Shown here piece after piece: positions 43,107 to 51,707 of a stretch of DNA of 64,000 bases. Source of the stretch: Bacteroidota bacterium (GTDB taxonomy: Bacteria; Bacteroidota; Ignavibacteria; Ignavibacteriales; Ignavibacteriaceae); NCBI GenBank assembly GCA_020161395.1, contig JAIUOE010000001.1:186001-250000 (forward strand), read 5' to 3'. How positions within the stretch are numbered: the stretch's first letter is position 1; each line of letters opens with the position of its first letter. A program made the position numbers and the translations under genes. The notes below the pieces were generated by a model. That model was not told the origin of the DNA, did not search any database, and worked only from the letters and a program-made list of their open reading frames with translations.

Positions 43107-43982
43107 TCATTTCGCCTCGTAAATTGACTTTATCGCAGATAAGAGCTGCAAAAACGCCGCCTTCACTACCAGGTACTCCCTTTCAAAATCCCGGAAACGA
43201 TTTTCTGCCGCAATGACAGTAATAAGATTTGATTTTTCATCCTCTTCAATGTTTTCTACGATCATAGAAATTACATTTGCCACCAAACTGGATGGAAATT
43301 GCGATGCAATGTCTTTACCCAACATAAAACATCCAACCAATAGTTCATCAAAAGAATCCGTACTCACTTTGTCAAATATCTCTTCATCGAAATACCGGTC
43401 AGCTTTTTGTGTAAAATAGTAGTTTGCCATAATCTCAAAGAGATCTATCGCATCTTTAGACCTGTCAGAACGCATTTTATGCCAAATCGTCAGTTTTATG
43501 ATAAACAACCCAACAAGTGAACATGTTTCCACAAGAACTTCCGGACTGTGATCCACTCTCACAGTAATGTTTCTTTCTTTGACTAAGTTGTAAACTTCAA
43601 TTTCCATCAAATTGCCTGACTTTGGCCATTCAATCTTCCCCATTTCCTTAAAACCATAAGGCAGAATATCCAGTTGGCGTGCATACTGTTCAAAATATAT
43701 TTTATGTTCAACTTTGTCAAATTGCACACCCCCTTTTTCGATCAACCTTTGGGTGAACCTGTTGTAATCCTGCCAATTGTTTACGGCAATACAAATATCA
43801 ATATCCTCTGTATATCGTGAAGTTCTTATTTCATGATAGTAGTTTAACAGAAGTTCTTTTGCGAAAGCACCGATTATAAAAAAAGTGATACTGGATTCTT
43901 TTGATATCTCATTTATAATTGTAAACAGTTTAACTGTGTTTGAATCTACTTTCCCGGACACATCAAATATCCTACTCCGCAT
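43107..43982 (-). CDS. AbiEii/AbiGii-like nucleotidyltransferase (putative type IV toxin)
   Basis: 291 residues. A nucleotidyltransferase core is visible: FFIIGAFAKELLL (residues 34-46, the GG-type loop) and YTEDIDICI with D60 and D62. The fold matches AbiEii-type toxins of type IV toxin-antitoxin pairs, which transfer nucleotides to RNA. The upstream gene, 43972-44934, overlaps it by 11 bases and resembles the cognate AbiEi antitoxin. The target is not known and the match is by motif and context only. Confidence 0.75.
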   Translation of the reverse strand: MRSRIFDVSGKVDSNTVKLFTIINEISKESSITFFIIGAFAKELLLNYYHEIRTSRYTEDIDICIAVNNWQDYNRFTQRLIEKGGVQFDKVEHKIYFEQYARQLDILPYGFKEMGKIEWPKSGNLMEIEVYNLVKERNITVRVDHSPEVLVETCSLVGLFIIKLTIWHKMRSDRSKDAIDLFEIMANYYFTQKADRYFDEEIFDKVSTDSFDELLVGCFMLGKDIASQFPSSLVANVISMIVENIEEDEKSNLITVIAAENRFRDFEREYLVVKAAFLQLLSAIKSIYEAK

Positions 43983-44934
43983 AAAACTCTCCAGCTGCCT
44001 CCATCAATCGGGGATTTGCGGATGTGATAAGATCGAGATAAACTATAAAATCGGGAGCTGTTTTATTCTTCATGGCATCATGTTCAAAATTCCAGTATTT
44101 CCCGAACACAATCAGATTACCGGATTGGGCAGGTATCAGACGATTAATTTTGATAAAATCCTTCGGTTCGCCTTCAAGATACAACTCTGTGGTCTTTTCC
44201 TTGAGAAATCCCGTCTTCATTTCAACTGCTTTACCTGAAGTGTAGTACACTTTGCAGGTCTCGGAATGAGAATCATTCAATTGAACAGTATCCGTCATGT
44301 TATACTTACCGATGAAAAATCTGTTCTTGATTGATGGCTGATATTCTATTTTTAGTCTTTGCAGGAGTTCATTTTTTTTAACAACATTTAAATATCCATT
44401 CTCAGATTTAACAAGATATCCCGCTCCCCTTAGTTTCTTTACAAATTTCGAAACATAACCCAGCGAACAGCCTGATAATGCGGCTATATCCCTGTAGTTT
44501 TTGTTAAGAGTATCAGGACGGGAGAAGAAGGTTATCAGCAGTTTAATTCCTGATTTTTCCAATCGAAGTTTTTCAAGAGGAAGAATATTATTCATTTTCC
44601 TTTGCTTTCTGCCCCTGACATCAATGAAAAAATCCTCTCCACGGATAAACGCATTCCCGGCAGTATCAATAAAAAACATCCCTTTCGTCCTAAGAATTTC
44701 AGAGACCTTGTTTCCGATTTGTTTCGTTATCACAATCATCCTGCCGGCACCTTCAGTAAGAAATTCTGCACTTTTCACCGATAGTGATGGAAAAACTGTC
44801 ACACCAAATTCCATCTTACTCGCACCTTTGCCGATTAAGAGAATTTGGTTTTCTTTGAACTCACACTTCAACGAATATTCGCTTTTCAGAATATCCAGCA
44901 CTAAAGATATAAGAGAGTTGTTAGCTTGTTTCAT
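43972..44934 (-). CDS. AbiEi-like antitoxin or DNA-binding partner of the AbiEii-like toxin
   Basis: 320 residues. A central winged-helix-like region (residues 150-200: YRDIAALSGCSLGYVSKFVK, LRGAGYLVKSENGYLNV) is followed by a C-terminal part characteristic of AbiEi-type antitoxins. It overlaps the nucleotidyltransferase gene by 11 bases, indicating co-expression. Antitoxins of this kind bind their promoter and repress the operon. The N-terminal 120 residues have no clear domain. Confidence 0.65.
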   Translation of the reverse strand: MKQANNSLISLVLDILKSEYSLKCEFKENQILLIGKGASKMEFGVTVFPSLSVKSAEFLTEGAGRMIVITKQIGNKVSEILRTKGMFFIDTAGNAFIRGEDFFIDVRGRKQRKMNNILPLEKLRLEKSGIKLLITFFSRPDTLNKNYRDIAALSGCSLGYVSKFVKKLRGAGYLVKSENGYLNVVKKNELLQRLKIEYQPSIKNRFFIGKYNMTDTVQLNDSHSETCKVYYTSGKAVEMKTGFLKEKTTELYLEGEPKDFIKINRLIPAQSGNLIVFGKYWNFEHDAMKNKTAPDFIVYLDLITSANPRLMEAAGEFYAE

Positions 44935-45045: not shown

Positions 45046-45095
45046 TGTCTGAATCAGGATTTTCAGGATCTAAGGATTCACAGGATTCAATTCCT
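45046..45095. repeat. AATCAGGAT-type intergenic repeat overlapping a stop codon
   Basis: GAATCAGGATTTTCAGGATC, then TAAGGATTCACAGGATTC. The tract spans the end of the gene at 45070-45972, whose last residues NPVNP are encoded by it. Different word family from the GCAAAG and CTATGA repeats. Confidence 0.6.
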
Positions 45096-45972
45096 GATTT
45101 ATCGGGAATGCCTCAAAGTCTCTTTTCTCGAATCTGAGATAGAGTCCTCTTTTTTGTCTTTTGATCATCCCATGTGAATCGAGGCAATCAAGTCCTCCGG
45201 GTATATAGACTTGAACTTCATCGTAAATTATGTATCTTTCTTCATGCCCTGGAGCAAGAAAAGAAATTTCTACCACTGAACCTTCCTTCTTTACTTCTTC
45301 AATATAATTTAGCAGTTTTGAATATTTTTCCCTGTTCTTTCTTTGGGCTTCTTCAGTTGGGTAGTTTTCAGGGTCATTGCACTTGATAAAAACGGTTTCA
45401 TACACGGTTCTTGAAAGTATTTGATCCAAATTCCTCATGGCACCGGGATTGAAAAGATAGGGATCGATAACTGTAATCGATTTTGAACCCTTTGCAAAAG
45501 GCTTTATAAGTTCATCCAGATTGTATACTGTATCAGGTTTTAGCAGAAAAACAGATGGTAGCGGCCTGACAATTTCAAAAAGGTTGTTTCTGCCACAAAT
45601 CTTTAGTTTTTGGTTTGATGCCTGAAGGTTGGAAATCTCAGAATCCTGTTTTTCAGGAGCAATATAAATTTTGTCTTTTGATGCCTTGCAAATATTAATC
45701 TCCGAATACCCTCCTTTTATAGTTTTTGGTCGTCCTTTTTTGGTGAACAACTCCAGAAGAAAGCTTTCCAGTTGTCGTTTAACCGGTGCAGATGGATCTA
45801 TCTGATCAAACGATTCCATCAGATGATTGAAGTATTCTTTTTGATCGTCGAAACAAAGGTAGTTCATGGCGATCGAATCAATCAGTTCACGGTTTCTGTT
45901 AAAGAGATTGCCAAGATGCTCCTGATAGAGATAAACCGGTAAACCCGAGGATATGGTAAGTTCCTGATTCAT
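45070..45972 (-). CDS. PLD/MIT_C-like protein, second gene of ATPase pair
   Basis: 300 residues, no signal peptide. The C-terminal half has SITVIDPYLFNPG (D170-P-Y) and then PGHEERYIIYDEVQVYIPGG (H243 and R246 with D251), a pattern like the MIT_C/PLD-like domain with DPY...HxxR(x)I(x)D. The classical HKD motif is absent, so the nuclease activity of phospholipase D relatives is unproven. Its ATG overlaps the stop of the ATPase gene (TGATG) after a GGAGG site, which indicates tight translational coupling. Probable effector or adaptor of the ATPase. Confidence 0.6.
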   Translation of the reverse strand: MNQELTISSGLPVYLYQEHLGNLFNRNRELIDSIAMNYLCFDDQKEYFNHLMESFDQIDPSAPVKRQLESFLLELFTKKGRPKTIKGGYSEINICKASKDKIYIAPEKQDSEISNLQASNQKLKICGRNNLFEIVRPLPSVFLLKPDTVYNLDELIKPFAKGSKSITVIDPYLFNPGAMRNLDQILSRTVYETVFIKCNDPENYPTEEAQRKNREKYSKLLNYIEEVKKEGSVVEISFLAPGHEERYIIYDEVQVYIPGGLDCLDSHGMIKRQKRGLYLRFEKRDFEAFPINQELNPVNP

Positions 45973-47804
45973 CAGTTCCTCCCGAGAAGAAGCTGCCTGT
46001 TCAGTTCCAGACTTTCGTCGAAAAAGCCTTTTGGTGTCTCCGTCTTGAAAAAGCCGTTGTCGTCAAGCTCCATCTCGATGGCTTTTGTGTTGCCGTCTTT
46101 GTCTTTGGCAAAATAATAAATGGAGAGGGCATCTTTGAGTTTTACATCCTCACCGGAGCAGTATCCCTCGGGCCAAAGTTGGAGTGTCTTCCCCTGTGAG
46201 ACAAGTACCTGAAGTTTTTTAAGCAGGTGCTCCGAGTGGGTTTCAATTATGAGATGGGTGGGGACGGTAAGGAATTCAAGCCTGTTCCCTTTTTTGAAGG
46301 ACTTCTGAAAATCATAATTCTTGTCATTAAAAGCCTTGACTTTTTCTTCCAATTCATCATCAGAGACTTCAACCAACTCCCATACTGGAGCGTTTTGTCG
46401 TCTAGTAGGAGAGAGATGTTCAATGAAATAATCAACAAGGATAGAGTGAAGTCGCGGATGTAAATGTAGTTCTGGCTGTTGAACTGAGAATAACAAATTG
46501 TTTTGATTATTAATGGTGATTAGAAACAATACGGGTAATAATTGAAGAGTACCACTACTAGCTTCGGATAAGTTGATACTTTTACTTTCGCGTTGTTTAA
46601 GTAATATTCTTTGTATCTGATCGACATTCGAAGTATAAACACCTTCTCCAAAGTCAAATTTCAACACCCAATTGTGAAAAGTTTTTGTGTGGTAGTCTTT
46701 CATCGTTTGATCGATCAAGTCATCTGTATAATCGAGATGTTGATAATATTTAAACAAACCATAATAGCTATTTTCGTTTATGGTTTCTTCAAAGAATCTG
46801 GATTTTGGGATTTCTCGAGTTGTTCCCATCAAAAGCATGGCGTCAAACTCTTTTGGCAGTTTATAGTTTTCAGAGGCAATAATTTTTGATACATAAGATG
46901 TAAGAATTTGAAGATGAGCCGCCTCTATTTCTCCGAAGGAAAGGTTAAGCAGTAAACCCAGATAAACACTAAAAATAGAGTCAGTCTTTATGACAGAAGG
47001 TTCACATACAATTTCAATAAAATTATCCTTCAGGCGCTCGTTGATTTTACTCCACTCAAACTCATTATTTGAAGGTCCCCATATATTTCTTCTAAAGAAA
47101 TATTTAAATAGATTGAAAACCACTTTACCAAAAATCTCAGTGTACTTTCTATCAGAACAGCTAATATTTGAAAATTCACAATAATAACTTCTGATCTTTG
47201 AAGGATTAATTTGTCCATCAAGAATCGAGATGTTTGGTTCAAATGGTCGAACCAAGTATCTTATTGTGAATTTAATCGTATCGCTAAGGTTATAGTTAAT
47301 ATTGGAAAGTTGATCATCAGTGTATACAAACTCCCGGGAATCTCTATTCCTTGTTAACTTTGAATTTCCCTTTATAGTTTCTCTGCCCAAAGGGATAAAT
47401 CCATTCTTTACCGATCTTTGAGGTAAATCTCCCATAAACTTATCGTCCATCTTCTCCGAATACTCATCCGTCGGATTCAGCTCAAACGGGCAGTTGTCGA
47501 TATCATAGATTTCTTCCACTTCGTGGTCGTAACCCCAGGTTTCCTCTGTGATTTTGATTGAGATAGGTTTTTTAGGGTCGTTGGCGATGTGTTCCCAGCC
47601 GCCGAGATTGATGTCGTCATCGATTACATATTTGAGTTTTTTGGCAGCTTCGTGGTCGTGGTTGTGTTTGAGGAAGAGGAGAGCTTTGAAGAGGGTGCTT
47701 TTGCCGGAGCCGTTTTCACCCGTCAGAATTGTCAATGGACTGAGCGTCACCTTCACATCTTTCAGATTCCTGAAGTTTTTGATGTGAACATGATATTTCC
47801 GCAT
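45972..47804 (-). CDS. AAA/OLD-like ATPase with DUF3696 C-terminal domain
   Basis: 610 residues from the ATG at 47804, chosen because GAGG lies five bases upstream and the protein then opens directly at the ATPase core; longer frames reach 47861 and 48017. Walker A GENGSGKST lies at 29-37 and an ABC/OLD-like QPELHLHPRLH signature in the C-terminal half, followed by an IIETHSEHLL segment. The C-terminus TPKGFFDESLELNRQLL has the DUF3696 pattern. These ATPases are common in phage-defence systems. It is translationally coupled to the PLD/MIT_C-like gene and divergent from Mrr. Confidence 0.85.
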   Translation of the reverse strand: MRKYHVHIKNFRNLKDVKVTLSPLTILTGENGSGKSTLFKALLFLKHNHDHEAAKKLKYVIDDDINLGGWEHIANDPKKPISIKITEETWGYDHEVEEIYDIDNCPFELNPTDEYSEKMDDKFMGDLPQRSVKNGFIPLGRETIKGNSKLTRNRDSREFVYTDDQLSNINYNLSDTIKFTIRYLVRPFEPNISILDGQINPSKIRSYYCEFSNISCSDRKYTEIFGKVVFNLFKYFFRRNIWGPSNNEFEWSKINERLKDNFIEIVCEPSVIKTDSIFSVYLGLLLNLSFGEIEAAHLQILTSYVSKIIASENYKLPKEFDAMLLMGTTREIPKSRFFEETINENSYYGLFKYYQHLDYTDDLIDQTMKDYHTKTFHNWVLKFDFGEGVYTSNVDQIQRILLKQRESKSINLSEASSGTLQLLPVLFLITINNQNNLLFSVQQPELHLHPRLHSILVDYFIEHLSPTRRQNAPVWELVEVSDDELEEKVKAFNDKNYDFQKSFKKGNRLEFLTVPTHLIIETHSEHLLKKLQVLVSQGKTLQLWPEGYCSGEDVKLKDALSIYYFAKDKDGNTKAIEMELDDNGFFKTETPKGFFDESLELNRQLLLGRN

Positions 47805-47999
47805 GATAACCTCGCGGTCAATCACTTTTCTCGATACGGTCTTTTTTTCGCTGTTTTCCATTTTCAATTTTTGCTTTTGTTCAAAATTGTTTAATATATG
47901 ATAGAGTGCAAAATATATATTTTTTCTAAAAAACCATGTTGAAATTTTTATATTTGGACAGTTTAAGAATAATTTTTGACAAAATTTAGATACAACCCT

Positions 48000-48899
48000 A
48001 TGGTACCTGACTTTCAAAGCCTCATGCTCCCCATCTTAAAATTGTTCAACGATGGTAACGAACATTCAACTCCAGAAATTCGAAACACACTCGCGTTAAT
48101 ACTTAACCTTTCAGAAGCTGATCTCGATCAGTCACTTCCAAGTGGTACACAAAAAACATTTGTAAACCGTACCGCATGGGCGATTTCATATCTGAAGAGA
48201 GGAAATCTAATAGAGAAAACTTCAAGAGGCAAGTATGTAATTACTTCAGCGGGTAAGGAGATTGTCAACTCCTCCATAGAAAAAATAAATATAAAACTAC
48301 TTAGATCTCTTCCGGGATATCAGGAAATAATGGGCGAATCAAAGGGAATTCAAGAGGAAAATATAGAAAATAATTTGATTGCGACTCCTGAAGAGATACT
48401 TGAAAGTAACTACCTCGAGATTAGAAAGAATCTCGCCCTCAATCTACTTATCCGCATCAAAGAAAGCAGTCCAACATTTTTTGAAAATTTGGTTGTTGAA
48501 CTCTTGGTCAAAATGGGATACGGTGGTACAATCCAGGAAGCCGGCAAATCAATTGGTAAAAGTGGTGACGAAGGAATTGACGGAATAATCAAAGAGGACA
48601 GACTCGGATTGGATATTATTTATTTACAGGCAAAAAGATGGGAGTCGATTGTTGGCAGACCGGAAATACAGAAATTTGTTGGTGCCCTCGCTGGACAAGG
48701 GGCTAAAAAAGGTGTTTTCATAACGACCTCATCTTTCAGCAATGAAGCAAAGAACTATCGACCGATGAACGATACAAAAATCGTACTGATAGATGGTCAG
48801 CAACTCGCTGAACTGATGATAGATTATGACTTGGCAGTTTCGACAATCAAAAATTATTCTCTGAAAAAAATAGATAATGATTATTTCGATTCCGAATGA
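48000..48899 (+). CDS. mrr: Mrr-family restriction endonuclease
   Basis: 299 residues from the ATG at 48000; a TTG at 47976 is an alternative start. The N-terminal winged domain (MLPILKLFNDG ... LPSGTQKTFVNRTAWAISYL) is typical of Mrr. The C-terminal Mrr catalytic PD-(D/E)XK domain shows FENLVVELLVKMGYGG, GDEGIDGIIKEDRLGLDIIY, LQAKRW and GVFITTSSFS. Mrr cleaves methylated or otherwise modified DNA. It stands divergently next to the DUF3696 ATPase pair inside the defence island, so it may be an accessory or an independent type IV restriction enzyme. Confidence 0.93.
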   Translation: MVPDFQSLMLPILKLFNDGNEHSTPEIRNTLALILNLSEADLDQSLPSGTQKTFVNRTAWAISYLKRGNLIEKTSRGKYVITSAGKEIVNSSIEKINIKLLRSLPGYQEIMGESKGIQEENIENNLIATPEEILESNYLEIRKNLALNLLIRIKESSPTFFENLVVELLVKMGYGGTIQEAGKSIGKSGDEGIDGIIKEDRLGLDIIYLQAKRWESIVGRPEIQKFVGALAGQGAKKGVFITTSSFSNEAKNYRPMNDTKIVLIDGQQLAELMIDYDLAVSTIKNYSLKKIDNDYFDSE

Positions 48900-49010: not shown

Positions 49011-49207
49011 TCCTCTCTACGAACATTTATCCCTCTTCGAGGGAATTATTGGCCCGGGATATTTCCTCTCTACCAACATTTATCCCTCTCCGAGGGAATT
49101 ATTGGACCGGGATATTTCCTCTCTACCAACATTTATCCCTCTTCGAGGGAATTATTGGACTGGGATTTCTCCTCTCTACCAACATTTATCCCTCTTCGAG
49201 GGAATTT
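49011..49207. repeat. Four tandem 53-bp repeats, each with a hairpin
   Basis: Copies begin at 49011, 49064, 49117 and 49170 (last one partial). Each opens with TCCTCTCTACCAACATTTAT and contains CCCTC-TTC-GAGGG, a 5-6 bp hairpin, then AATTATTGGACCGGGATATT. Differences between copies are few, and the 53-base period is not a multiple of three, which argues against coding. The repeats are contiguous with no spacers. They fill the 357-base gap between the convergent Mrr and zinc-ribbon genes. No other feature is seen in that gap. Confidence 0.85.
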
Positions 49208-49256
49208 CATATATATCCTTCTAATTCTTTTCAATCATGAATATCGTGTACAAACC

Positions 49257-50177
49257 TCACAACAACCCCCTGCCATTCTTTATTTCGAGCACGCTGGAGA
49301 GTTGTGCGGCTGATTTAATTTTCATGACATAATTGCAGCCGGTTCCGTCCCGTTTCCACATGGGACAACCGAGAAAAAACTGATCGCGAAGGCCGCCGCT
49401 TGGATCGAATTTTTCCTGCAACACAAGTTCCAGACCGTGCTCAGAACAGAAATACTTCTCAATCGTTTCAAATTTTATATCCCGCATCCTTTTCACGATA
49501 TTTTGCTGCGCGGCAGGGTGCTGAATGATTGTATCCAGTTGACCGGCAGTAATCTGAAACTCTTCCCTGCCAGTGTTGGTAAACAGGCGGGCATCCGATT
49601 TCTGAAATGGTGCCGTAGCCCGGCACGCTCCCGAGTAGTAGCCGGTACAACCCCAAAACATATCTGTAAGACTCGTGTTTTTGCTTGATCTGTTCCATTG
49701 AAGGGTCATGGGTCTTCCACAGACGGAGCATCTCTTATTTGAAACGGACTGCCCCACATGAAACTGAACGATATGAATGTTGCTGCTATCAACTTCCACA
49801 TCCTCATAGCCGGAAGAATTTTCGGTAAACTCACCTGCCGCTTCCATTTCATTGTACTGAATAGCTTCATCTATCAGAGTTTTTCTGCGGGCATAAAGTT
49901 GGTCGAGTTCATGTTTTTCATACTCCGAAAGCCTGCCGTCCCGTTTTCTTTTATCCTCGAGATCAACAATTCTCTCATTTATATCTTGACGGCTGTATCT
50001 GTTTTTGCGTTTTTCCTGATAACTGTTGCCGCTTTTATAATCGTTGTATGCCTGTTTTGCCACATGGTAGAGTTCAACAGCCTTCTCACCAACATAAGCG
50101 GCTACTGTGCCGATTGCATAAACGGCCGCCCCGATAAAGACACCTGCTTTTTTGAAAAATTCGCTAAAAATTCCCAT
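49257..50177 (-). CDS. Membrane protein with two topoisomerase-type zinc ribbons (gene 3 of an unrecognised operon)
   Basis: 306 residues. The N-terminus (residues 10-30, AGVFIGAAVYAIGTVAAYVG) is a hydrophobic segment, followed by a charged helical linker. Two topoisomerase-type zinc ribbons follow: C150-x2-C153, C177 and C185 with GCTGYYSGACRATAPF, and C244-x2-H247, C271 and C281 with GCPMWKRDGTGCNYVMKI. Such ribbons bind nucleic acid in topoisomerase I tails and in some defence and plasmid proteins. It overlaps the upstream gene by 14 bases, so a single operon is very likely. I cannot assign it to a known family. Confidence 0.7.
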   Translation of the reverse strand: MGIFSEFFKKAGVFIGAAVYAIGTVAAYVGEKAVELYHVAKQAYNDYKSGNSYQEKRKNRYSRQDINERIVDLEDKRKRDGRLSEYEKHELDQLYARRKTLIDEAIQYNEMEAAGEFTENSSGYEDVEVDSSNIHIVQFHVGQSVSNKRCSVCGRPMTLQWNRSSKNTSLTDMFWGCTGYYSGACRATAPFQKSDARLFTNTGREEFQITAGQLDTIIQHPAAQQNIVKRMRDIKFETIEKYFCSEHGLELVLQEKFDPSGGLRDQFFLGCPMWKRDGTGCNYVMKIKSAAQLSSVLEIKNGRGLL

Positions 50178-51171
50178 TTACGCTACTCCTTTTTTGTCTG
50201 TGAAATTGAAGTATTTCTTTCAATTTGTTGATATTCTCCCTCATCATCTCTGATATTTTCCTCAGATTATTGACTCTCCTGTAATACAATCCTGCCCCGA
50301 ATGCTGCGGGGAGAGCAAGAAATCCACCACCAAGAGCATATACAAAAGCACCCGTTGCGGTAGAAAAGAGTGACCTGCCAAATCTCTCCGAACCGTTTTT
50401 TATTGCCGCTTCAACCGATTGCTTTTTTGCAAACAACTTGTACCCTTCGATTGCCAGGATTATGGAAAGGGGAGCAAGCGGGTGAAAAGAGTCACCGAAT
50501 TTGTCAAAAAGCCCCTCATTACCGTGATGAATCGTCGATTCTATTGTGCTTGTGAGGTGATCGTCTTCAATTCCTGAGCCTGATACCATTGTATAACCAT
50601 CAGGCAAGTGATTTGCCGCTTCTTCGGTTGCAAGAATCTTGATATCGGGATATTTATGGAGTGCCTCAGAAATGTAGGAGAGGTTTTCCGTTGCCTTCAA
50701 CTGGAGGTGATCGGCTACATCTCCCGATGCATCCTTAATGGCAATATCCCACCCGGGTTGGGTGAGAGATTCTGCCAATTCTGCGTGATAACCGTCAGGA
50801 AGAACCAAATCGCCGACCCGTTCGCCGTTATTTAGCTTGTCTGTTACCAGCAATTCGAAATATTTCCCCTTCGCCGAGTTTATAATTCCCGTGAGCTGAT
50901 CATCAGTATAGGAACTCAGCATCGATGGATCAAAATTCGGATTGGTCATCTTAATGGCTTGGAGGGCAAGAGGGTCAGGCTCTCCATCAAAGATGTGGAG
51001 CGAAAGATTTGCAGAGGCTACAAGACTGTCGATAATCGCCATTTTTCGCTTCTTCAGATATTTTTGAAAGACCACGGAAAACGATTCGAGTGTACCTTCA
51101 TGGGGAAGGAAATACTTTTTCCTCAACCCAAGAAGCCTGATTTTTACCTCATCGGGGATAAAATTATCCAT
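50164..51171 (-). CDS. Membrane-associated protein with PD-(D/E)XK-like core (gene 2 of the operon)
   Basis: 335 residues. A nuclease-like pattern is visible: KGKYFELLVTDKL (E106), GWDIAIKD (D142) and HLQLKATE (Q157-L-K159), spaced as in PD-(D/E)XK enzymes. The C-terminal third has glycine-rich hydrophobic stretches (LAPLSIILAIEGYKLF near 235; SLFSTATGAFVYALGGGFLA near 265), suggesting membrane association. It overlaps its neighbours on both sides (14 and 8 bases). An unrelated fold with chance similarity cannot be excluded, and I do not recognise the family. Confidence 0.65.
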   Translation of the reverse strand: MDNFIPDEVKIRLLGLRKKYFLPHEGTLESFSVVFQKYLKKRKMAIIDSLVASANLSLHIFDGEPDPLALQAIKMTNPNFDPSMLSSYTDDQLTGIINSAKGKYFELLVTDKLNNGERVGDLVLPDGYHAELAESLTQPGWDIAIKDASGDVADHLQLKATENLSYISEALHKYPDIKILATEEAANHLPDGYTMVSGSGIEDDHLTSTIESTIHHGNEGLFDKFGDSFHPLAPLSIILAIEGYKLFAKKQSVEAAIKNGSERFGRSLFSTATGAFVYALGGGFLALPAAFGAGLYYRRVNNLRKISEMMRENINKLKEILQFHRQKRSSVNGNF

Positions 51172-51475
51172 CCATTCGCCTCAGGATATGGTTGAAGCCC
51201 CTTTCCGTGAACTCTTTCAATTCATCAAACTTCGCCATCAAAAGAATCACTTCATTCCTGATTATTTTCACATTTGCTTTCAGGTCAGCAAATTCCTGTG
51301 AATTTTTGGCAAATTCTGCCGATAATCCCGCAACTTTTCTCTCAAGCTCTGCACCTCCATTCTTTACGGATACAAGCTCAGTATCAAATCCGGAGAGAAT
51401 TTCAGCCACCATCAGATGGTACTCATTGATTTGATCTTTTATCTTTTCGTTGGTGATTTCTGATACATTTTTCAT
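51164..51475 (-). CDS. Small coiled-coil protein (gene 1 of the operon)
   Basis: 103 residues, highly helical, with a heptad-like stretch from about residue 35 to 95 (ELERKVAGLSAEFAKNSQEF, LKANVKIIRNEVILLMAKFD). No enzyme motif. It is the first gene of the leftward three-gene operon and overlaps the nuclease-like gene by 8 bases. It may serve as a scaffold or sensor; that is only inference. Confidence 0.65.
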   Translation of the reverse strand: MKNVSEITNEKIKDQINEYHLMVAEILSGFDTELVSVKNGGAELERKVAGLSAEFAKNSQEFADLKANVKIIRNEVILLMAKFDELKEFTERGFNHILRRMDG

Positions 51476-51536
51476 TTTCTCTCAATGGTTGTTACCTGTT
51501 AAGAGTAACAAAAAGGCGGTTTTTCCGAAATCCGAT

Positions 51537-51707
51537 ATGAACCGCCGTATTTCAAGATTTGACGAGGCTAAATGGCTGGCTCAACATGTTTTCGATAACG
51601 GAGAAGGTTTCATTCAGGAAGTTGGGAAATTAGTCATCAATCTGTGTGAAGAAAGGGACTCCGCCTGCTACAATGTTCAGGGAGAAAGGTCGGGTTATTT
51701 AGACTGA
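51537..51707 (+). CDS. Possible small gene, 56 residues
   Basis: From the ATG at 51537 the frame encodes a plausible protein (AKWLAQHVFDNGEGFIQEVG, LVINLCEERDSACY). There is no strong ribosome binding site and no known motif. It may be a real small gene, a remnant, or chance; I give it low weight. Confidence 0.25.
   Translation: MNRRISRFDEAKWLAQHVFDNGEGFIQEVGKLVINLCEERDSACYNVQGERSGYLD

Follow-up and report, generated by a model that had tools for sequence, protein, structure and literature searches.

An overlapping three-gene operon with a predicted PD-(D/E)XK-type nuclease and a double zinc ribbon protein in a Bacteroidota genome

Three overlapping genes and their features

In a 64,000-nucleotide stretch of a Bacteroidota bacterium genome (family Ignavibacteriaceae, assembly GCA_020161395.1, contig JAIUOE010000001.1, positions 186,001 to 250,000; hereafter the window), three genes on the minus strand overlap by 8 bases (51164-51171) and 14 bases (50164-50177), and an AAGGAG site ahead of gene 3 lies within gene 2. 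The coordinates, sizes and overlaps agree with those of an original prediction made from the DNA letters alone, in which the operon was described as a coiled coil, a membrane PD-(D/E)XK-like protein and a membrane double zinc ribbon protein that together might act against phages or plasmids. We found residues of catalytic type conserved in gene 2, zinc ligands conserved in gene 3, a different nuclease-type domain beside the gene 3 relatives and a sister species from which the operon has been lost. We tentatively propose that the operon is a defence module built around a membrane-associated nuclease, a reading that we consider quite possible, if somewhat short of probable. The features are as follows:

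51164..51475, minus strand: gene 1, 103 amino acids, charged helical protein, probable coiled coil (composition, sub-threshold Pfam matches)
50164..51171, minus strand: gene 2, 335 amino acids, predicted PD-(D/E)XK-type nuclease with a C-terminal hydrophobic segment (PADLOC PDC-M72B match)
50614..50904, minus strand: predicted nuclease core of gene 2, residues 90-186 (family conservation, model)
50854-50856, minus strand: codon of gene 2 E106
50746-50748, minus strand: codon of gene 2 D142
50695-50703, minus strand: codons of gene 2 Q157-L-K159
50293..50370, minus strand: Gly-rich hydrophobic segment of gene 2, residues 268-293
49257..50177, minus strand: gene 3, 306 amino acids, with an N-terminal hydrophobic segment, a helical region and two zinc ribbons
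50091..50147, minus strand: hydrophobic segment of gene 3, residues 11-29 (an amphipathic helix instead in relatives)
49623..49730, minus strand: gene 3 zinc ribbon 1, C150-C153-C177-C185
49335..49448, minus strand: gene 3 zinc ribbon 2, C244-H247-C271-C281
49011..49206, no strand: 53-bp tandem repeat, 3.7 copies, directly downstream of the operon

The gene 2 family and its candidate catalytic residues

E106, D142 and Q157-L-K159 stand at the residues originally predicted. In an alignment of eight gene 2 sequences, the invariant columns among the 142 gap-free ones are G102, E106, G140, D142 and K159. Since three of these five fall among the four predicted motif positions (hypergeometric P = 8.5e-5, in a simple test that treats all columns as equal), E106, D142 and K159 are conserved more than expected by chance. 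The position of Q157 holds Q in seven of the eight sequences and N in that of genome G156. Two pairs in the alignment are closely related (viral contigs L036 and L040; contig L038 and a Sulfitobacter protein), so the effective number of sequences is below eight. With two more distant members added (from genomes G549 and G266), G102, E106 and D142 are invariant among 115 gap-free columns; the added rows contain QVK and, in G266, SVK, neither of which the aligner places in the K159 column. Residues in the PD-(D/E)XK order, E, D and (E/Q)xK, are present in gene 2 and conserved in its family, and nearly all that these alignments conserve would belong to the catalytic set.

The AlphaFold model of gene 2 contains a helix (90-114), three strands (122-132, 142-146 and 152-157), a second helix (164-173) and a further strand (179-181), with E106 within the first helix, D142 opening one strand and Q157 closing another. 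The PD-(D/E)XK core is built as alpha-beta-beta-beta-alpha-beta, and the order of elements in gene 2, as predicted at low confidence, would fit that core and agrees with known enzymes of this type. Neither Pfam nor NCBIfam, searched up to E 1, nor the PDB chains gave a match to gene 2, and PHROGs gave a single chance-level one.

The nuclease region does match the PADLOC family PDC-M72B (PDLC04784, 3.4e-19; PDLC04785, 1.6e-15), where PDC stands for phage defence candidate in the available text of PMC11514479. The view that the parts belong to no named system therefore has to be narrowed: gene 2 is a catalogued candidate nuclease, and what is new is the three-gene combination, in which no PADLOC system was recognised, together with the change of nuclease beside gene 3. 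Component A (PDC-M72A, PDLC04783) is absent from the window genome and had no match in G156, G004 or the two plasmids described below either. Its 16 and 19 matches in genomes G278 and G471 are repeat-like, and the model is unspecific, as 5 of the 14 control genomes match it. Neither gene 1 nor gene 3 has a match among the PDC-M72 models. We found no paper naming PDC-M72B in a literature search that left most subscription papers outside.

The family is rare. A search with the single gene 2 protein found it in 2 of 296 genomes of the phylum (the window genome and G004), and the PDC-M72B profile in 2 of 116 relatives (the window genome and G156) and 5 of 395 phylum genomes (these three, G549 and G266), with none of the 14 controls matching. 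Elsewhere, relatives occur on two plasmids (Sulfitobacter and Yoonia) and five viral contigs (L036-L040; L041 is the same contig as L038). Phages searched with gene 2 gave no relatives, nor did viral contigs searched with the protein P0002 or the G156/G004 alignment.

Hydrophobic segments accompany the nuclease in differing layouts. The one in gene 2 follows the nuclease and is of moderate strength (peak Kyte-Doolittle value 1.59); in G004, G156, G549 and G266 such segments flank the nuclease on both sides. In the plasmid and viral cassettes (L003, L004, L036-L040), a homologous nuclease has its membrane partner in cis or in trans: the hydrophobic part is fused ahead of the nuclease in the Yoonia protein, encoded by a separate overlapping gene on the Sulfitobacter plasmid and by a separate adjoining or overlapping gene on the phage contigs, in which the start of the nuclease is putative. 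Unlike the zinc ribbon partner in the window, it is Gly-rich and of membrane type, either a protein of its own or a domain, and it matches PDC-M09A in the three cases scanned (Yoonia, Sulfitobacter and L036; loci L003, L004 and L036).

Partners of gene 3 and loss of the operon

The double zinc ribbon predicted for gene 3 holds: the two Cys/His quartets, eight ligands in all, are kept in the three members known, from the window, G278 (a Rhodothermales metagenome-assembled genome (MAG), JAJEDR010000033.1) and G471 (a Rhodothermaceae MAG, MPNB01000114.1), with Pfam scores below cut-off. These reach 18 bits against 25.3 for Zn_ribbon_recom in gene 3 and 13.8 bits against 32 for Zn_ribbon_Top1 in the G278 relative. 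The relatives are 29-32% identical to the window protein in alignments. A phage family of unknown function, phrog_16932, matches a short stretch over ribbon 1 (1.6e-5). In the gene 3 model, two helices (32-80 and 85-114) are accompanied by two beta ribbons, and the N-terminal segment of the window protein peaks at a Kyte-Doolittle value of 1.84. PDB sequence searches returned nothing or designed proteins only.

Gene 3 is likewise rare. Searching 296 phylum genomes gave ten hits, of which two were kept (the window and G278); in the other eight the match was limited to 33-48 zinc-ribbon residues, and they were left out of the family. Two members were found among 244 genomes of the G278 class. 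In 245 genomes of the window class, one of the two hits was false, the open reading frame in G120 being judged by eye a chorismate synthase; 144 genomes of the G549 class gave the same two. GTDB contigs searched with two narrow patterns only gave two. No relatives were found among viral contigs with the gene 3 alignment or among plasmids with the G278 protein, and the 15 plasmid records obtained with gene 3 itself were all annotated topoisomerase III zinc ribbons, not relatives.

In Rhodothermales, the same zinc partner stands beside a different nuclease type. The gene directly before the G471 relative, itself frameshifted, codes for a protein whose T5orf172 domain (22.5 bits against a cut-off of 20) we take to belong to the GIY-YIG clan and which ends in a C-terminal hydrophobic segment and basic tail. 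In G278, the T5orf172 gene is interrupted where a contig ends; the tail part stands ahead of gene 3, the front part on a different contig. The T5orf172 protein was found in only these two of 244 genomes, with no relatives on the plasmids and viral contigs searched, and neither it nor the Rhodothermales gene 3 matches a PADLOC model at 1e-4. Both loci adjoin the same Sua5-like and ion-channel-like genes (by eye); the loci are therefore orthologous, the idea of two independent pairings was rejected, and the gene 3/T5orf172 pairing counts once. The G278 relative also adjoins an FRG-domain protein with pentapeptide repeats by Pfam (L017 1766-3256).

The probable coiled coil assigned to gene 1 agrees with its composition and with sub-threshold Pfam matches; PADLOC gave a weak match to ZorA (0.0025) over the helical stretch. 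In the six genomes searched, gene 1 occurs in the window genome only, plus as a scar in G184, a genome of the same genus. In G549, an unlike 103-amino-acid protein with a C-terminal hydrophobic helix directly precedes the nuclease, 2 bases away or overlapping it by 13 if a GTG start is used, and blastp found no match between it and gene 1. A CCDC90-like coil upstream in G471 was rejected as a counterpart, lying about 550 bases away with none recognised in G278.

G184 is collinear with the window on both flanks and lacks approximately window 49048-51392, so that 28 codons of gene 1 are fused to the counterpart of the downstream 53-bp repeat. Ten of the 28 codons differ, nine of them synonymously, with one synonymous change at the junction. 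The mostly synonymous nature of these changes suggests that gene 1 was under selection while the operon was still present, although the stretch is short. Genes 2 and 3 have no match in G184, and the gene 2 family profile found none in G296 and G297. The repeat itself carries hairpins of the TCCCTC-TTC-GAGGGA type. Around the operon, the place of Mrr in the window is taken in G184 by a DUF4143/AAA_14 gene; window 51531-51707 is a 3' remnant of a DUF2225 gene, of which G184 has an intact copy (L047 7878-8618); and the G184 counterpart of a neighbouring ATPase gene is 87% and 93% identical at the DNA level over two end stretches, with no DNA match in the middle at the threshold used.

Proposed defence at the membrane and competing explanations

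The closest likeness in mode is SNIPE (PD-lambda-1, published 2026). In the available text of PMC13190303, SNIPE is a single protein with an N-terminal transmembrane part, DUF4041 and a GIY-YIG nuclease; membrane anchoring confines the nuclease, DUF4041 promotes DNA binding, and phage DNA is cut at injection, which offers a way to tell phage from self. Both would combine an inner-membrane nuclease with a DNA-binding part, and the gene 3 partner in Rhodothermales carries T5orf172; the operon appears to resemble SNIPE in mode and not in membership. In the window, the predicted nuclease is of the PD-(D/E)XK type and the zinc ribbons, which would fill the DNA-binding role of DUF4041, are on a separate gene. 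Pfam DUF4041 matched neither genes 1-3 nor the T5orf172 protein, and no window protein matched a GIY-YIG domain, T5orf172 being confined to the Rhodothermales partner. PADLOC gave no SNIPE-type name, the presence of a SNIPE model in PADLOC being unchecked. Our literature search for this combination, which covered few subscription papers, gave among the matches listed SNIPE and the earlier screen from which it reportedly came (PMC9519451), and otherwise seemingly unrelated papers.

Kiwa and Zorya are also membrane-associated and act at or near genome entry, according to the same available text (PMC13190303); Kiwa had no PADLOC match at E <= 0.1 and Zorya only the weak ZorA match of gene 1. CoCoNuTs, in the part of PMC11090510 available, also bring together coiled coils, PD-(D/E)XK and zinc ribbons, but they include McrB-type GTPases, of which the window operon has none.

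We infer a mechanism in which gene 2 would be a metal-dependent, PD-(D/E)XK-type DNA cutter using E106, D142 and K159 together with Q157, and in which its C-terminal Gly-rich hydrophobic segment would fix it to the membrane. At the same membrane, gene 3 would grip nucleic acid through its two topoisomerase-type zinc ribbons and present entering DNA to the nuclease, and gene 1, small and helical, may serve as an adaptor for assembling gene 2 or keeping it in check. The membrane position would then confine cutting to entering DNA and spare the chromosome, as in SNIPE. A role of the operon in defence is likely, and cutting at entry is plausible.

The surroundings of the gene 2 family are in line with such a role. 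The window has an Mrr neighbour (PADLOC mREase_IV, 2.5e-78), a gene pair at 45070-48017 consisting of an AAA ATPase, matched best by NsnB (7.6e-37), and a partner weakly matching MIT_C (6e-4) and BrxL (5e-5), and at 43107-44934 an AbiEi/AbiEii-type pair by Pfam with no AbiE match in PADLOC. G004 has NERD+UvrD (3e-52), Ppl-like (1.3e-23) and MTase_II (1.8e-57) neighbours. The 586-amino-acid PDC-M72B-type protein of G266 (L061 5976-7736), with strongly hydrophobic ends, is encoded next after hsdM-hsdS-hsdR, 26 bases from hsdR, and in G156 the next gene upstream has a Dsr1 match, to the C-terminal part (5.2e-33). Further matches are HEC-05 (4e-218) on the Sulfitobacter plasmid, UzuA (3.4e-58) in Yoonia and QatC (7.1e-52) on L038. 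On L036, L039 and L040, the cassette lies opposite in strand to an adjoining tail terminator gene (phrog_4204); L039 has phrog_6367 on the other side, and L037 has look-alike open reading frames (unscanned). This phage-contig cassette is likely superinfection or defence cargo. It is a two-gene membrane protein/nuclease cassette (L036 5021-6633 and counterparts on L037, L039 and L040) on the strand opposite to tail genes.

A number of results weigh against the proposed membrane-bound defence module. Modelling and profile searches, to which the original prediction had pointed, gave poor models from shallow alignments (predicted local distance difference test (pLDDT) 45 for gene 2 and 54 for gene 3) and no known nuclease. 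Foldseek with the gene 2 model found nothing in a PDB library at E <= 0.001, a PDB profile search with gene 2 gave designed proteins only, and no hhalign comparison of the nuclease profile with the window Mrr, a NERD domain or four further proteins rose above noise. Because structural and profile matches are absent, the PD-(D/E)XK fold, likely in view of the conserved motif and the predicted order of elements, is unproven. Both predicted membrane stretches were found as hydrophobic segments, but the N-terminal helix of both gene 3 relatives is amphipathic (Kyte-Doolittle peaks 0.97 and 0.89) and not hydrophobic, and the basic C-terminal tail in which gene 2 ends leaves its topology open; peripheral or re-entrant membrane attachment would also suit the basic tails and the amphipathic helix.

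The defence context is subject to similar caution. Defence genes or phage tail-gene regions often surround the gene 2 relatives, but G549 has no PADLOC match at 1e-15 among the four neighbours scanned. In a control at that threshold, covering genes of at least 150 amino acids no more than 5 kb away at the window locus and at four chromosomal ones (plasmid and viral members stand outside it), PADLOC matched 9 of 25 neighbours (21 scanned, the other four counted as none). Of 32 arbitrary genes from five stretches of the same genomes, probably 5 and no more than 7 were matched. The trend is in the right direction and not significant (P = 0.07 with 5, 0.19 with 7). The PDC-M72B label, which we take to be a product of defence-neighbourhood mining, is for that reason not independent evidence. 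Gene 3 was found with gene 2 once, so that each pairing has one independent instance, and no known system was recognised at the Rhodothermales locus (neighbours judged mostly by eye, with only the coil among them scanned in PADLOC). The SNIPE precedent covers phage only, since plasmid transformation is not blocked by SNIPE in the available text (PMC13190303).

The best-surviving alternative, which we regard as rather unlikely, is defence that does not act at entry: a triggered cytoplasmic nuclease, restriction-like or abortive, that would attack nucleic acid of phage or host and whose hydrophobic segments would serve assembly. The G266 member behind a type I restriction operon, the G156 member beside the Dsr1 match and the moderate hydrophobicity of the segments fit this explanation, but those segments recur in every layout examined, and no sensor domain, whether ATPase, nucleotide-signal or another, is significant in any of the three proteins. 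A housekeeping function, in which the operon would handle DNA at the envelope for uptake, transfer or repair, appears improbable. It would account for the G549 member and the Rhodothermales locus among ordinary-looking genes, the latter at one site in two species; against it are the loss in the sister species, the plasmid and phage locations and a patchy distribution, with gene 3 in 2 of 244 genomes of the class of the Rhodothermales members and the gene 2 family in 5 of 395 genomes of the phylum.

Slightly less probable still is an addiction or toxin-antitoxin unit carried on plasmids, phages and islands, with gene 2 as the toxic nuclease and gene 1 or 3 as its antidote. The tight overlaps, the plasmid and viral-contig locations and the small upstream gene in both the window and G549 speak for it, but the partners are not one conserved protein family, and G184, in which genes 2 and 3 have no match, retains just residues 1-29 of gene 1 and hence no antidote. 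Least probable is that gene 3 is an unrelated neighbour of a unit of genes 1 and 2: G549 does have a small gene and nuclease with no gene 3 match, and gene 3 relatives pair with something else, but the 14-base overlap and the AAGGAG site inside gene 2 tie gene 3 to the operon, and its relatives, too, stand directly behind a gene whose product has both a nuclease-type domain and a hydrophobic segment.

Within the membrane-associated defence module that we favour, a partner of either PD-(D/E)XK or GIY-YIG type suits an adaptor role for gene 3. A broader idea, that gene 3 represents an adaptor family in which a membrane-associated double zinc ribbon holds incoming DNA for exchangeable membrane nucleases of unrelated folds, seems to us somewhat unlikely. 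If true, it would constitute a second, modular form of location-based self/non-self discrimination, independent of the DUF4041 of SNIPE. Should the module act as proposed, membrane-entry cutting would have arisen more than once and in modular form, with the DNA-holding partner kept and the nuclease exchanged, and the PDC-M72B family would gain a testable mechanism.

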